A DNA stretch of 44,871 nt, from IMG/VR virus record IMGVR_UViG_3300044446_000014, positions 1-44,871 of that record. The stretch is one strand, 5' to 3'. Every line of letters starts with the position of its first letter. Positions within the stretch are counted from its first letter, which is position 1. The notes under the pieces were generated by a model that saw only the letters and a program-made list of their open reading frames with translations, searched no databases and had not been told where the DNA came from. Source of the DNA: a virus. Positions 32,520 to 37,768 of this stretch are shown here, in pieces. The position numbers and the translations under genes are program-made.

Positions 32520-32712
32520 CGTGCTGCTCCTGTCCTGTCACCCGTTGCCATCGCCAGCCCTTCGCCCTGCAGTAGCGCGCGACATGGGCACCGTGCCAGC
32601 CGACCATAAAGGCGATGATCGGCGCGGCCCTGATCACCTTGCCCTCAGCTGCCACTAGCCCAGCCACAAAATTCGGGCCGGTGACGCTGATCAGATGTTC
32701 ACGTCGTGCCAT
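32461..32712 (-). CDS. Conserved phage small protein (TGPNFVAGLV type)
   Basis: 83 residues. VTGPNFVAGLVAAEGKVIRAAPIIAFMVGWHGAHVARYCRAKGWRW reproduces a short protein repeatedly seen in early regions of alphaproteobacterial phages, function unknown. The ATG at 32712 is preceded by GAGG; an adjacent ATG at 32715 is possible. The last 20 residues overlap the next gene in another frame and may be dispensable. Confidence 0.72.
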   Translation of the reverse strand: MARREHLISVTGPNFVAGLVAAEGKVIRAAPIIAFMVGWHGAHVARYCRAKGWRWQRVTGQEQHDGAEPAGIESRSAAGAADA

Positions 32713-33724
32713 CATCCTCAGGTGGCTTCGGCTTGTTCAAATCGGCTGACCGCCTCAGTGCCTCGGCAGTGGTAGAAGTCGGCGGCACAGCCGCCCCGGG
32801 GGAGAGTGGGGCATCTGGCTGCGCCGCCGTCCCGCCATGTTCACTGGTCTGCACGCCAGCTGCGGCGGAAGTATCAGCATCGCTGCGGCGCGGCTCGGGC
32901 GGTGCCTCCACAGGCCAGCTCTCGCTGGCGAGTGCCATGCCGTCGACCACAGCTTTGATTTCGGTAATGACGCGAGCGATGTCGGCGGCCAACCACTCAG
33001 CCAAGGGCTTGCCGAGTTGGCGCTCGACGCGCGGGAGGGCCACCTCGATCTCAGCCAGCCGCTTCGCCACGCGCTCGCGATAGTGGTTCACGTTCTTGCC
33101 GATGCGGGCCACGAGGTTCTGTCGAGCCACGTCTGTCATGTAGACCACGAAGGGCAGCTCAAGGTGCGCCACGATGGCGTTGCGGATCGCCTTCGACTGG
33201 CCAATCTGGAAACTCATGTCGAGGCGGCGTGCATCATCCTCGCCGCCGATCTTGGCCACCCCCTTATGCTGCTGGAAAAGGCGCGCAGTCTGCACACCCG
33301 CCTCGAAGTCCGAAAATACTGCTTTGAAAATCCATGCCGGGCCGATGTCCACAGAGGCGATATCGGTGCGGCTGTTGCCGTAGCACCTCTGGATCGCATA
33401 GGCGGCTTTCACGGTCGGCCCCTCGACGGTGTCCGTCTTGCCTGTCCGGCGATTGCGCACCGGCCAGCGATAGAGCAGCACCTCGTCGCCTGCGAACGCT
33501 GCCACGCTGGCCAGCTTCTGCAAAATTTTCGCCTCGTCGCGCGGCACCTCCACGCGAACCGCCGTCACGATGTCCCTGATGAGCAGCTCGGCACCGCCAC
33601 CCAAATCCCGGCCGCGCGGCTGCGGTGGTATCAGCTCGCCCTTGCTCGCGGGCGATTGAAACATCTCGTTCAGCTCCTCCTGCGTCATCGCAGGCGGGTC
33701 GAGATAGTCAGGTTCGGGTGCCAT
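32699..33724 (-). CDS. Conserved phage early protein, possibly recombination-associated
   Basis: 341 residues. Core blocks VEVPRDEAKILQKLASVAAFAGDEVLLYRW, VEGPTVKAAYAIQRCYGN, FKAVFSDFEAGVQTARLFQQHKG and DMSFQIGQSKAIRNAIVAHL are those of a widespread phage family usually found beside recombination genes. I do not know an experimentally proved function. The C-terminal ~100 residues are Pro/Ala/Ser-rich and disordered. It starts 60 bases downstream of a GGCNN satellite array. Confidence 0.75.
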   Translation of the reverse strand: MAPEPDYLDPPAMTQEELNEMFQSPASKGELIPPQPRGRDLGGGAELLIRDIVTAVRVEVPRDEAKILQKLASVAAFAGDEVLLYRWPVRNRRTGKTDTVEGPTVKAAYAIQRCYGNSRTDIASVDIGPAWIFKAVFSDFEAGVQTARLFQQHKGVAKIGGEDDARRLDMSFQIGQSKAIRNAIVAHLELPFVVYMTDVARQNLVARIGKNVNHYRERVAKRLAEIEVALPRVERQLGKPLAEWLAADIARVITEIKAVVDGMALASESWPVEAPPEPRRSDADTSAAAGVQTSEHGGTAAQPDAPLSPGAAVPPTSTTAEALRRSADLNKPKPPEDDGTT

Positions 33725-33745
33725 GGTTCGATTGATCCTTTCCTA

Positions 33746-33805
33746 CGTGCCGTGCCTTGCCTTGGCTTGCCACGCCGGTCGAAACTCGGCCTAGCCTAGC
33801 CAAGC
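33746..33805 (-). repeat. GGCNN pentanucleotide satellite 1
   Basis: Plus-strand reading GTGCC GTGCC TTGCC, then TTGCC ACGCC and CGGCC TAGCC TAGCC: GCC every five bases. On the transcribed (minus) strand this is GGCNN repeats. It fills the gap between the genes at 33724 and 33810. Confidence 0.75.
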
Positions 33806-33809
33806 GGTC

Positions 33810-34586
33810 TCATGTGGGTGTCTCGTCGTTGTAGAATTCGCAGCCGGGCGGCGGCGTGCCTGTGCCCTTCACCGACTTGGCGTGGTCGCTGGCCACCTTA
33901 GCGATGGCCTTTAGCGCCGCCTCGCGGATGGCTGGGTGCTTGGCATAGTGCTTGAGCGCCAGCTGCGGATCCGTGACGCGGGCTTTCCAGTTCGAGCGCA
34001 GCGACATCGCGCGCTTGGCGTAGTCGCCTTTCACCTGTGGCCTATCGGGCACAGCGTTGGCCTGCTTAACGCTGGCATTGGCCGAGCGCATGGCCTGATC
34101 CGCCTGCTGCTGTTGCTCCACCGTGGCCCCTGTCTGATCGGCCTCACGCCGCAGCCGCTCGGCGTGGGCAATGGCATCGGCGGCGGCCTTGGCCTTGGCT
34201 GCCCTCTCATCGGCCAGCCGGTGGCGCTCGCGCTGCAGCCAGTCCGACATCTTGCTCAGCATCGCCCGGAGGCCGATGTCGACGCGCTCGACATGAGGAG
34301 TAAAGCGGGCGCGGATCAGAAATATCGCGGCCTCGTAGGGCTTACGGTCAGCCTTGGCGGTGGTGTCGAGATCGAGCGCTGTCACCCGCAGCTGATCAAT
34401 CAGGAGCTGAGCCGCAGCAGCCTGCTCGCTGTCGGCAATCTGCGGCCGCTCAGCCAGCCAGCGATTAACGGTGGCCGTCAGCTGGTCACTGCGGGCCAGT
34501 GCCGCGATGGCCTCGGGAGAGGCCTCGGCGGGCGGCATGTTGTGGCCGATGGGAGGCAGGCCCAGTTCATCGAAGCCGTCTGTCAT
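33810..34586 (-). CDS. Coiled-coil early phage protein
   Basis: 258 residues, start MTDGFDELGLPPIGHNMPPA behind GCAGGAGAGGAAACC. A long charged coiled coil (about 60-170; WLQRERHRLADERAAKAKAAADAIAHAERLRREAD) and a conserved C-terminal module (YAKRAMSLRSNWKARVTDPQLALKHYAKHP, ending PPPGCEFYND). This architecture belongs to a common phage family encoded near recombination genes. It is compatible with a Gam-like or nuclease-accessory role, not demonstrated. Confidence 0.78.
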   Translation of the reverse strand: MTDGFDELGLPPIGHNMPPAEASPEAIAALARSDQLTATVNRWLAERPQIADSEQAAAAQLLIDQLRVTALDLDTTAKADRKPYEAAIFLIRARFTPHVERVDIGLRAMLSKMSDWLQRERHRLADERAAKAKAAADAIAHAERLRREADQTGATVEQQQQADQAMRSANASVKQANAVPDRPQVKGDYAKRAMSLRSNWKARVTDPQLALKHYAKHPAIREAALKAIAKVASDHAKSVKGTGTPPPGCEFYNDETPT

Positions 34587-34750
34587 GGTTTCCTCTCCTG
34601 CAGCCACCGCCGCAGCTTGTCGCGCTCGGCAGGATCATCGATGTCGCGCAGCCATGTGCACTCGATGCAGAGGTCGTCATCGTTGGCGGCTGCGACGTAG
34701 CAATAGACGCGCGTGCCACAGTCCCGGCAGGTGAATTGCCGCGGCCTCAT
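34583..34750 (-). CDS. Small zinc-ribbon protein
   Basis: 55 residues. CRDCG (8-12) and LCIEC (27-31) form a likely four-cysteine zinc site. ATGA overlaps with both neighbours. Confidence 0.72.
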   Translation of the reverse strand: MRPRQFTCRDCGTRVYCYVAAANDDDLCIECTWLRDIDDPAERDKLRRWLQERKP

Positions 34751-35197: not shown

Positions 35198-35209
35198 CCT
35201 GCTGCGCTC

Positions 35210-36236
35210 CTCGTTGCCTGCCGTGCCGCTTCCTGCGGCACCGAGCCTAGTCGTGCACACCTGCCCCTGCCGAGCCGGGCCTGCCTTGCCTGTGCCTTGC
35301 CGAGCTGAGCCTAGTCCTGTCGTTCGCGACCAAACCCCGCCGAGCCAAGGCCTTCCCCGCCTGCCTTGCCTTGCATCGCCAACCCAAGGCCAGCGACGCC
35401 TCTGCTTGCCTGCCCAGTCAAACCACGCCTCGCCATTGCTCCACTTGCCAGTGCGGGCAGTGACGTGCCTGCCTTGTCGCGCCAGTCCGAGCCCTTCCGG
35501 GCGCTAGTACGCCCCGTCGTATCTCACCCGGCCGCGCCGTCGTCATGCCGCGCCTCGCCTGCCGTGCTCCGTCCCGCCGATGTCCGGCTGTGCCGCACCT
35601 CGCCAGTCCGTGCCAGCCACCGCCGTGCCCTTCCATGCCTGCCGTGCCCTTGGCAGGCCAATGCAGGTCGCGCCGAACCGAATTGGGCTCTGCCATGTCA
35701 TGCCCAGCCGTGCCTGCCTTGCCTTGCCAGTGGCCGCCAAGCCAAGCGATGCAGAGCACCGCCTTGCCCAGCCCGTCGTGCCTGCCTCGCCGTGCCTCGC
35801 CGTGCCCAGCCCGGACTGCCCGACCCATGCCCTCGCCCTCCGCGCCTGACCGCGCCAGAACTTGGCCCGCCCTGCCGTGCCTGCCGTGCCTTGCCTTTGC
35901 TGGCCATGTCTCAGCTCGCCAACGCTGGCAACGCCCGGCCTTGTCAGTCCGTGCCTGCCTGCCGCTGCTTGCCGCGCCTCCCCGACCAAGCCCATGCCGT
36001 GCCCTTCCGCGATCCACCACGCACGCCTGCCTTGCCTTCGTCATGTCAGGCCAGTCGTTCCCCCGCCTGATCAAGGCTGCCCATGCCTGCCGTGTCATGC
36101 GCCGCCCGGCCTTGCCAAACCCGGCGAGACCAGACCTCGCACTGCCATGGCTGGCCTGCCGTGCCCTACCAACGCCGTGCGCTGGCCCCGCGCTGGCCGG
36201 TGATGCCGGGCCGAGCATTGCCCTGCCTGCCATTGC
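35210..36236 (-). repeat. ~1 kb degenerate GGCNN pentanucleotide array
   Basis: Almost the whole stretch reads NNGCC on the plus strand (for example ctGCC gtGCC ttGCC), that is GGCNN on the transcribed strand, with a period of five bases. At full occupancy it holds about 200 units, with frequent single-base slips. No credible gene is present: frames open on both strands exist only because the unit rarely forms a stop, and they translate to Pro/Ala/Leu/Cys or Gly/Arg/Ala/His low-complexity sequence. It starts right at the stop of the 36237 gene and ends about 15 bases before the start of the 35197 gene. Confidence 0.88.
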
Positions 36237-36767
36237 CTATGCCCTCGCTTCCGGCCGAGGAGGCCGACGACGCGGCGGCTTGCGCGTCGCTCGGTCCTTG
36301 GCTGCTGCTCGCCGCTCGGCCTTCGACTTGAGGGCCAGCACATCATCGAGCAGTTCTTCGAGCTTGGCGGTGAGGCCGAGCACTGCAGCAACATCGTGCG
36401 CACGCTTGAGCGCGGCGGCGACACGATCCAGCTCATCGAGCAACACGCGCTCGGCAATCTCCCGGTCGCGAGCTGCACGGGTCAGGGCCACGTATCGCTT
36501 CGACCGCGAAGGTCGGTCAGGATCGACCACGTAGTAGGGCGCGACGATGCGCTCACTCTCGATGGTCACCTCTAGCCGAACGAAGCGGATCAAGGTGCGC
36601 GCGGTGTCGAGCCAGTGTTCCTGTGCCGCCGCCGACACGTCCCATTCAAACTCGTGATGAATGGGGCTTTTTGGATCGCGTGCCGCCTCGACCACGGCAG
36701 TGGGCTCGATGTGGCCATCGCGCGTGCCCAACGACCGAATGTAGCTGGCCTTTTCTTTCGAGATCAT
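36237..36767 (-). CDS. Conserved phage early protein
   Basis: 176 residues. IEPTAVVEAARDPKSPIHHEFEWDVSAAAQEHWLDTARTLIRFVRLEVTIE (about 20-70), YYVVDPDRPSRSKRYVAL and ERVLLDELDRVAAALKRAHDVAAVLGL are typical of a small-protein family common in siphovirus recombination/early modules. The C-terminus is very basic (RRAAAKDRATRKPPRRRPPR), suggesting nucleic acid contact. Function unknown. ATGA-coupled to the upstream gene. Confidence 0.75.
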   Translation of the reverse strand: MISKEKASYIRSLGTRDGHIEPTAVVEAARDPKSPIHHEFEWDVSAAAQEHWLDTARTLIRFVRLEVTIESERIVAPYYVVDPDRPSRSKRYVALTRAARDREIAERVLLDELDRVAAALKRAHDVAAVLGLTAKLEELLDDVLALKSKAERRAAAKDRATRKPPRRRPPRPEARA

Positions 36768-37633
36768 GTGCGGGCCTCAGGGGCATGGCCGTTGCGCTTG
36801 CTGACTGTGCCAGCTGCTCGGCGGCGGCGACCGCGCGGCTCGTCAGCAACCAGCCCTTGCGGTGTCCGGTCATGCTCGCGGCGCACGATCTCTCCGTGAT
36901 ACCAGCTCAGCATTTCCTCGGTGTCGGCATCGACTGCCTCAGGCTTGGCCATCGCCGCCTCCTGCACCTTGCGATGCCCGCTGCGCGCGATCTCATGCCA
37001 TTCCTTGTCATCCTTGCTGACCAGCTTCCACGAGCCGTTGTTGAATGTGCCCTTCTCGGTGCGCCCGTCACCGATGCCGACGATGTCGCCCGCCGCGTCG
37101 AGCAGATTGATCACGTCCTGCTCGCGGATTTTGTTGCTGATCATCTGCACGGTGATCTTGCAACACCACCGGGGGAATTTGGCGCGCGTGCGGATGTCAG
37201 GCACTTTGCTGAACCCGGCCAGTCGCACCACGTCCATGTAGAGAAACGGCTTGCCGAACAGGTGCACCGTCTCGTCGAGAATTTTGATCAGCCTGCCGAC
37301 CTCGGCCTTGGTCGCGCCTTCCATGTCAATGGCGGCCTGCGCCATGGCCTTCTTGATGGCGTTGCTCGGAATGTGGATCAGCGTCGGCGCGCTGTGGTCT
37401 CGGCAGCGATAAACGCTGTCGCGGTATTCGTCGGGCGGATTGTGCTTGAGAGTGGCAGCGCGCGCCGCCTTGTTCATCGCGCGCCTCGGCATCAGCAACT
37501 CCTCCTTGGCCTTCTTCGGCATGCGGTTCATCACCAGCGGCGAGGTGCCGAGGATGTAGAACGTGGTCGAGCGCCGTTCGAGGCGTTGGATCGATACGTA
37601 GGTTTCCTCTTTCGTCAGTTTCTTGGCAGCCAT
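36764..37633 (-). CDS. Conserved phage protein, family with GIGDGR C-terminal motif
   Basis: 289 residues. YILGTSPLVMNRMPKKAKEEL near the N-terminus, PSNAIKKAMAQAAIDM in the middle, and KITVQMISNKIREQDVINLLDAAGDIVGIGDGRTEKG near 190-230 match a widespread phage early family of unknown role. The C-terminal ~55 residues are basic. GGAGACTAAC precedes the ATG at 37633; an ATG four codons earlier has no site. Probably the partner of the 36237 gene. Confidence 0.74.
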   Translation of the reverse strand: MAAKKLTKEETYVSIQRLERRSTTFYILGTSPLVMNRMPKKAKEELLMPRRAMNKAARAATLKHNPPDEYRDSVYRCRDHSAPTLIHIPSNAIKKAMAQAAIDMEGATKAEVGRLIKILDETVHLFGKPFLYMDVVRLAGFSKVPDIRTRAKFPRWCCKITVQMISNKIREQDVINLLDAAGDIVGIGDGRTEKGTFNNGSWKLVSKDDKEWHEIARSGHRKVQEAAMAKPEAVDADTEEMLSWYHGEIVRREHDRTPQGLVADEPRGRRRRAAGTVSKRNGHAPEART

Positions 37634-37665
37634 GTTAGTCTCCATTGTTGCTTAGGTTGAACGCG

Positions 37666-37768
37666 AACGCTTACGCTGAACGCTACTGAGTTGCCTGCCG
37701 TGCCTCGTACTTCCTCGTTAAGCCATGCCGGGTCTGCGCTCCGTAGAGCCCAGCCAAGCCCGGCCACG
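37666..37768 (-). repeat. Upstream region with GAACGC repeats and GGCNN satellite 2
   Basis: 37670-37695 contains GAACGC, GAACGC, TTACGC and GAACGC in tight succession. From 37691 on, TTGCC TGCCG and later GAGCC CAGCC AAGCC CGGCC resume the five-base GCC rhythm. It lies upstream of the start at 37633 and downstream of the gene ending at 37769. Confidence 0.6.

Follow-up and report, generated by a model that had tools for sequence, protein, structure and literature searches.

The 85 bp gap at positions 33725-33809 of the 44,871-nucleotide viral sequence analysed here in full (hereafter the window) very probably encodes a vrRNA, the guide of a VIPR (Viral Interference Programmable Repeat) system carried by the phage itself; as judged from sequence comparisons, this guide would be directed against the recombination gene of rival phages and would spare the phage's own allele of that gene. 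As described in the main text of a 2026 preprint, VIPR combines RAMP-type Vipr proteins with vrRNAs in which GGY and NN elements alternate as 9-16 repeats flanking vipr, and the NN letters read double-stranded DNA with one base skipped per unit, usually at the codon wobble position, the targets being competing phages or mobile elements (PMC13142463). According to the same text, Vipr is a RAMP with an RRM core and a G-rich loop, the accessory genes vap1-6 and seven types are distinguished, and the vrRNA has a conserved 3′ tail, is expressed and is co-purified with Vipr (PMC13142463). The guide-RNA reading of the gap is the product of the present analysis together with this preprint (PMC13142463), and the function is absent from the original prediction made for this sequence.

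The gap is flanked by the genes 33810-34589 and 32699-33724, both of which run leftward. On the minus strand, positions 33806-33747 can be parsed into 12 pentamers in a single phase (CGC.TT GGC.TA GGC.TA GGC.CG AGT.TT CGA.CC GGC.GT GGC.AA GCC.AA GGC.AA GGC.AC GGC.AC), of which eight carry a perfect GGC and four depart from GGY (CGC, AGT, CGA and GCC). The number of GGC pairs at a spacing of five is five, compared with a mean of 0.12 in shuffled sequences, none of 2000 shuffles being as high. The eight in-phase GGY per 12 units likewise exceed the maximum of six that was found both elsewhere in the window (about 86,700 windows on both strands of the 44.9-kb sequence minus the arrays) and in 20,000 dinucleotide shuffles, so that the GGCNN phase stands above a coding-like background as the original prediction had required. 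The five-base rhythm, which had been claimed to run in the same orientation as that of the large array, is also confirmed, with 12 of 12 pentamers in phase. What had to be given up is the notion that this is the only such gap, as GGCNN units are also present at 37646-37768, upstream of the Vipr gene. Neither an Rfam family nor a tRNA was found in the searched sequence.

The Vipr gene itself is located at 36764-37645 on the minus strand. A family profile built from 79 homologues including the window gene matches PDB entry 36pp, 'SUSP1 Vipr protein', with E = 1e-42; 78 of the 79 members match phrog_4652, and the family has a conserved AG...G.GD.RP motif. The window protein is predicted (pLDDT 89.5) to adopt the RAMP fold known from Csm3/Cas7, and the best 50 rows of a VIA-align comparison were all CRISPR RAMP-type entries (Z 8.0-9.5), in a fold library that ends in April 2026 and among whose rows the presumably newer 36pp does not appear. 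Next to it at 36237-36767 (minus strand) lies a probable accessory (Vap) gene belonging to phrog_15946, homologues of which are found next to vipr in many contigs, among them those of Mycobacterium and Gordonia phages. By phase and unit parse, three stretches of the minus strand can be assigned to vrRNAs: an array upstream of vipr (37646-37768), the main array of about 1 kb with 118 GGC (35198-36236), and the 12 pentamers of the gap (33747-33806), the last also by its target matches. The main array consists of about 14 segments of 49-99 nt each with GGCA|GGC junctions between them; the segment ends share a GGCA[AC]GGCA element, and a structured 3′ tail was not found. Taken together, the profile match to 36pp, the RAMP fold and the vrRNA-type arrays identify this region, at the level of sequence and predicted structure, as a VIPR locus comprising an array, vipr, a probable vap, the main array and the gap array.

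An open reading frame of 271 codons (35418-36233, minus strand) sits wholly inside the main guide array; Pfam and PHROGs contain no homologue of it, and it is probably spurious. Since GGCNN repeats leave all frames fairly open, array reading frames are easily mis-annotated as genes, and gp48 of Mycobacterium phage Donkeykong is an array reading frame that has likewise been called a gene. Elsewhere in the window, the plus-strand gene 666-1628 is similar to phrog_842, beta-glucosyl-HMC-alpha-glucosyltransferase (E = 2e-42), and glycosylation of DNA bases is possible in the phage carrying it. The comparison of the terminase pointed to no host for the phage; relatives of the integrase found in plasmids were mostly from Alphaproteobacteria.

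The gene downstream of the gap (32699-33724, minus strand, phrog_3657) was described in the original prediction as recombination-like, and the predicted fold as well as the position of a homologue adjoining recE indeed suggest a recombination protein of the single-strand-annealing type. The AlphaFold model of its product (pLDDT 62.6) aligned best with human RAD52 (VIA-align Z 7.3), followed by Red-beta (5.8) and Mgm101 (5.3), and the best nine rows were made up of RAD52 and Red-beta (Z 5.8-7.3). A search of the PDB by sequence profile with this protein gave no match, and a Rad52/Red-beta-like fold is assigned to it with modest confidence, the Z scores being modest as well.

Decoding followed the published 1-nt-skip rule, by which the NN letters pair and one target base is skipped per unit (PMC13142463). 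The gap array thereby yields the guide TT TA TA CG TT CC GT AA AA AA, followed by the units GGC.AC GGC.AC. Among the loci compared first, the best skip-1 matches listed reached 17 of the 20 letters of units 2-11 and were located, L153 and L154 apart, in homologues of the gene 32699-33724; these 17/20 sites keep the reading frame, the third codon position being the one that is skipped, and within units 3-10 the target sites of L005 and L008 differ from each other at skipped bases only. When eight guide units were compared with all of IMG/VR, 15 stretches matched in total, 12 of them in homologues of the same gene (E 1e-56 to 1e-189), in every case in frame and with the skip at the codon wobble position; the 12 contigs include near duplicates and represent about nine lineages. 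A complete match (20/20) is found in L161 and L165, two contigs which are 99.5% identical and have, like the window, a GC content of 0.63-0.64, while 19/20 letters fit in L155 and 18/20 in the remaining contigs of the gene family. Because the NN letters fit homologues of the neighbouring gene in codon phase, slippage fails as an explanation of the array.

The phage's own allele, in turn, matches at 12 of 20 letters only, and its eight mismatches make it the poorest fit among 14 homologues. Its site in 32699-33724 reads LLYRWPVRNR, whereas the conserved motif of the rivals is [FW][FY]YRFPV[KN][KN][KN]. With up to three mismatches allowed, a search of 44 array- or target-bearing contigs gave a single match in each of 12 contigs, always in this gene, and no match at all with reversed patterns as a control; nor did the gap-array guide match the window itself. 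Outside the recombination gene, L153 (4225-4254) and L154, two nearly identical contigs of one unrelated virus with 47% GC, fit units 2-11 at 20/20 with the skip at codon position 1, a match that may be due to chance or may mark a second target.

For the guides of the main array, no target was found in IMG/VR or in the 44 contigs, and the array guides of the window hit the window itself no more often than shuffled guides do. An early, underpowered test of 593 ten-unit guides against loci that were mostly VIPR carriers gave no excess at skip 1. When the guides from seven VIPR loci were compared with shuffled ones, matches of 17 or 18 letters out of 18, counted as strong, were in excess at skip 1 only (30 as compared to 8), and skips 0, 2 and 3 gave 0, 2 and 5 of them, respectively; the excess relies on contigs that had been fetched as targets with the gap-array guide, the earlier test without such preselection having shown none.

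One of the target contigs, G045, is itself a VIPR phage, with identities to the window of 45% for Vipr, 38% for vap and 42% for the recombination protein, and with the gene order exonuclease-like gene, array, vipr, array, vap, array, recombination gene. The homologous gap before its recombination gene also holds a vrRNA, and in relatives arrays are spread over several gaps of the same operon, which speaks for the dispersed functional element proposed in the original prediction and not for a slippage accident. The guide letters of this vrRNA (AT GC AT AT AA TC AT GC GA GG AT, first 11 units) match the recombination gene of L159 at 22 of 22 positions, in wobble phase, at the motif IAMMKSIADGM; the corresponding motif of the contig's own allele, IAMAKAVSDGM, mismatches the guide, and the site is a different motif of the same gene family than the one matched by the guide of the window. 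As far as can be read from the sequences, G045 is an independent recurrence of a guide placed before the phage's own mismatched allele. A guide combined with a mismatched own allele is accordingly found in two phages that share 45% identity in Vipr, and at different sites of the same gene, and there is a reasonable case, if not a strong one, that such a cassette of guide plus spared allele exists in this VIPR clade, is inherited as a linked unit and can spread by replacing the alleles of rivals at the recombination locus.

Since in G045 the array lies immediately between vap and the recombination gene, the gap array of the window may be a split-off part, and it is conceivable, if rather unlikely, that it is a relic of the main array that is dead or not transcribed, having been cut off from it by the insertion of four genes, and that its guide was functional formerly. 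The four of 12 units that lack GGY would fit such a decay. Against it, the NN letters match present-day targets at 18/20 to 20/20 even when the degenerate units are included, and the units of the main array are relaxed from GGY just as much, so that relaxed GGY looks like the norm in this phage. 

A second alternative takes up the position of the array, which lies just 5′ of the gene 32699-33724 in mRNA sense: as an autoregulatory leader with a TRAP-like 5-nt period, the repeats of the mRNA would bind Vipr or the adjacent protein and control the phage's own recombination gene. This appears improbable, as eight of the 20 guide letters mismatch this very gene, and it is the gene of rivals that the letters fit.

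Arrays of this kind are not confined to the window. By blastn, the large array matched only in Mycobacterium F1 phages, where it adjoins a gene similar to the window gene 36764-37645; tblastn with the latter retrieved those Mycobacterium phages as well as Gordonia phages. In nine loci and additionally in Donkeykong and Quico, an array lies directly beside the Vipr homologue, upstream of it in Mycobacterium phages and downstream in Gordonia phages. Runs of eight consecutive GGCNN units were found in at least 120 stretches of IMG/VR, and 85 of those listed have a Vipr-family gene within 1 kb of the array (median distance 38 bp), a distribution which again favours a dispersed functional element. 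In these 85 stretches 171 of 174 arrays are on the strand of the Vipr gene, and three further array stretches have a Vipr-family gene elsewhere on the whole contig. That the arrays are a functionless pentanucleotide satellite spread by slippage can be practically dismissed, since the NN positions vary freely with the GGC phase kept, the arrays are linked to the Vipr gene and its strand, and the decoded target match contradicts it, even if pentanucleotide arrays with no detected Vipr gene do exist (L100 and L108).

Several of these loci have peculiarities of their own. L116 and L062 are the only ones of the 85 with a Vipr gene opposite in strand to a GGC array, and the near-perfect GGCAA or GGCAC runs of L100 and L108, where no Vipr gene was detected, are probably ordinary satellites. 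In L007 (9690-10170) and L006 (7100-9990), a near-constant spacer (AGGGATACTTTGTGGATTTCCGAATGC), possibly a vrRNA tail or processing signal, separates strict GGCNN blocks of 50-90 bp. L083 (8000-8110 and 9450-9860) has a different junction type, in which a GGCGGTC element every ~35-60 bp replaces GGCA|GGC. In L043 (2600-3760, minus strand), which carries a close Vipr relative, the order is array, HTH gene, array, and a hairpin followed by a T run, which together resemble an intrinsic terminator. A search of the literature on pentanucleotide or GGCA repeats in phages found nothing relevant.

With regard to the mode of action of a guide in the gap, we infer by analogy with the preprint (PMC13142463) that the vrRNA would be transcribed as part of the leftward operon and then processed, whereupon Vipr subunits would assemble on it, one on each GGY-NN pentamer. 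Of every three bases of the double-stranded DNA target, two would pair with the NN letters and the third would be skipped, and the complex of Vipr and vrRNA would bind and silence the recombination gene of a competing phage. As the skipped base is the codon wobble position, synonymous changes in the target would leave the match intact. Given the Rad52/Red-beta-like fold and the homologue beside recE, silencing would be expected to hurt the recombination-dependent replication of the rival, from which the phage might benefit. Attack and self-exemption would moreover be genetically linked, because the guide sits directly before the phage's own divergent allele, indicating a simple logic of self and non-self. 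The natural guide of an environmental VIPR phage could thus be decoded from sequence alone, and the match indicates a new class of target, a phage annealing recombinase. The logic of a 1-nt skip at the wobble position receives support outside the two clades treated in the main text of the preprint (PMC13142463), and GGY can evidently relax while the guide letters keep fitting their target.

As in the SUSP1 and P. fulva type II VIPR systems described in that main text, the window combines a Vipr RAMP, an accessory gene beside vipr, intergenic GGY/NN vrRNAs and a 1-nt skip at the wobble position, with competing mobile elements as targets. It differs from them by its relaxed GGY (CGC, AGT, CGA, GCC and GAC units), by its 4-nt GGCA|GGC junctions, which give the array a staggered look, and by a structured tail not having been found. 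It also differs by a guide against a recombination gene that is placed before the phage's own divergent allele; the main text of the preprint does not report a guide located next to a spared allele of the phage itself (PMC13142463).

In structure comparison, the RAMPs of class 1 CRISPR systems (Csm3/Cas7) have the same fold as the Vipr of the window, and their arrangement of one subunit per RNA repeat is presumed to apply to Vipr likewise. In contrast to these systems, the window has a single small RAMP encoded by a phage and a noncontiguous guide made of pentamers, and no CRISPR repeats or cas genes, cas1 included, were noted in the examined genes near the array. The binding sites of TRAP, the trp RNA-binding attenuation protein, are also triplets with variable spacers of 2 nt. 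TRAP acts by mRNA attenuation and its spacers are not read, whereas in the array of the window it is the spacers that carry the information. A further parallel is offered by the Mycobacterium phages of cluster F1 (Cheoctovirus) and by Gordonia phages, in which a GGCNN array lies beside a homologous Vipr gene and on the same strand. The Vipr homologues of these phages are annotated as 'hypothetical protein', and the array of Donkeykong as gene 48; arrays beside phrog_4652 genes, including those of well-studied mycobacteriophages, are probably guide arrays as well.
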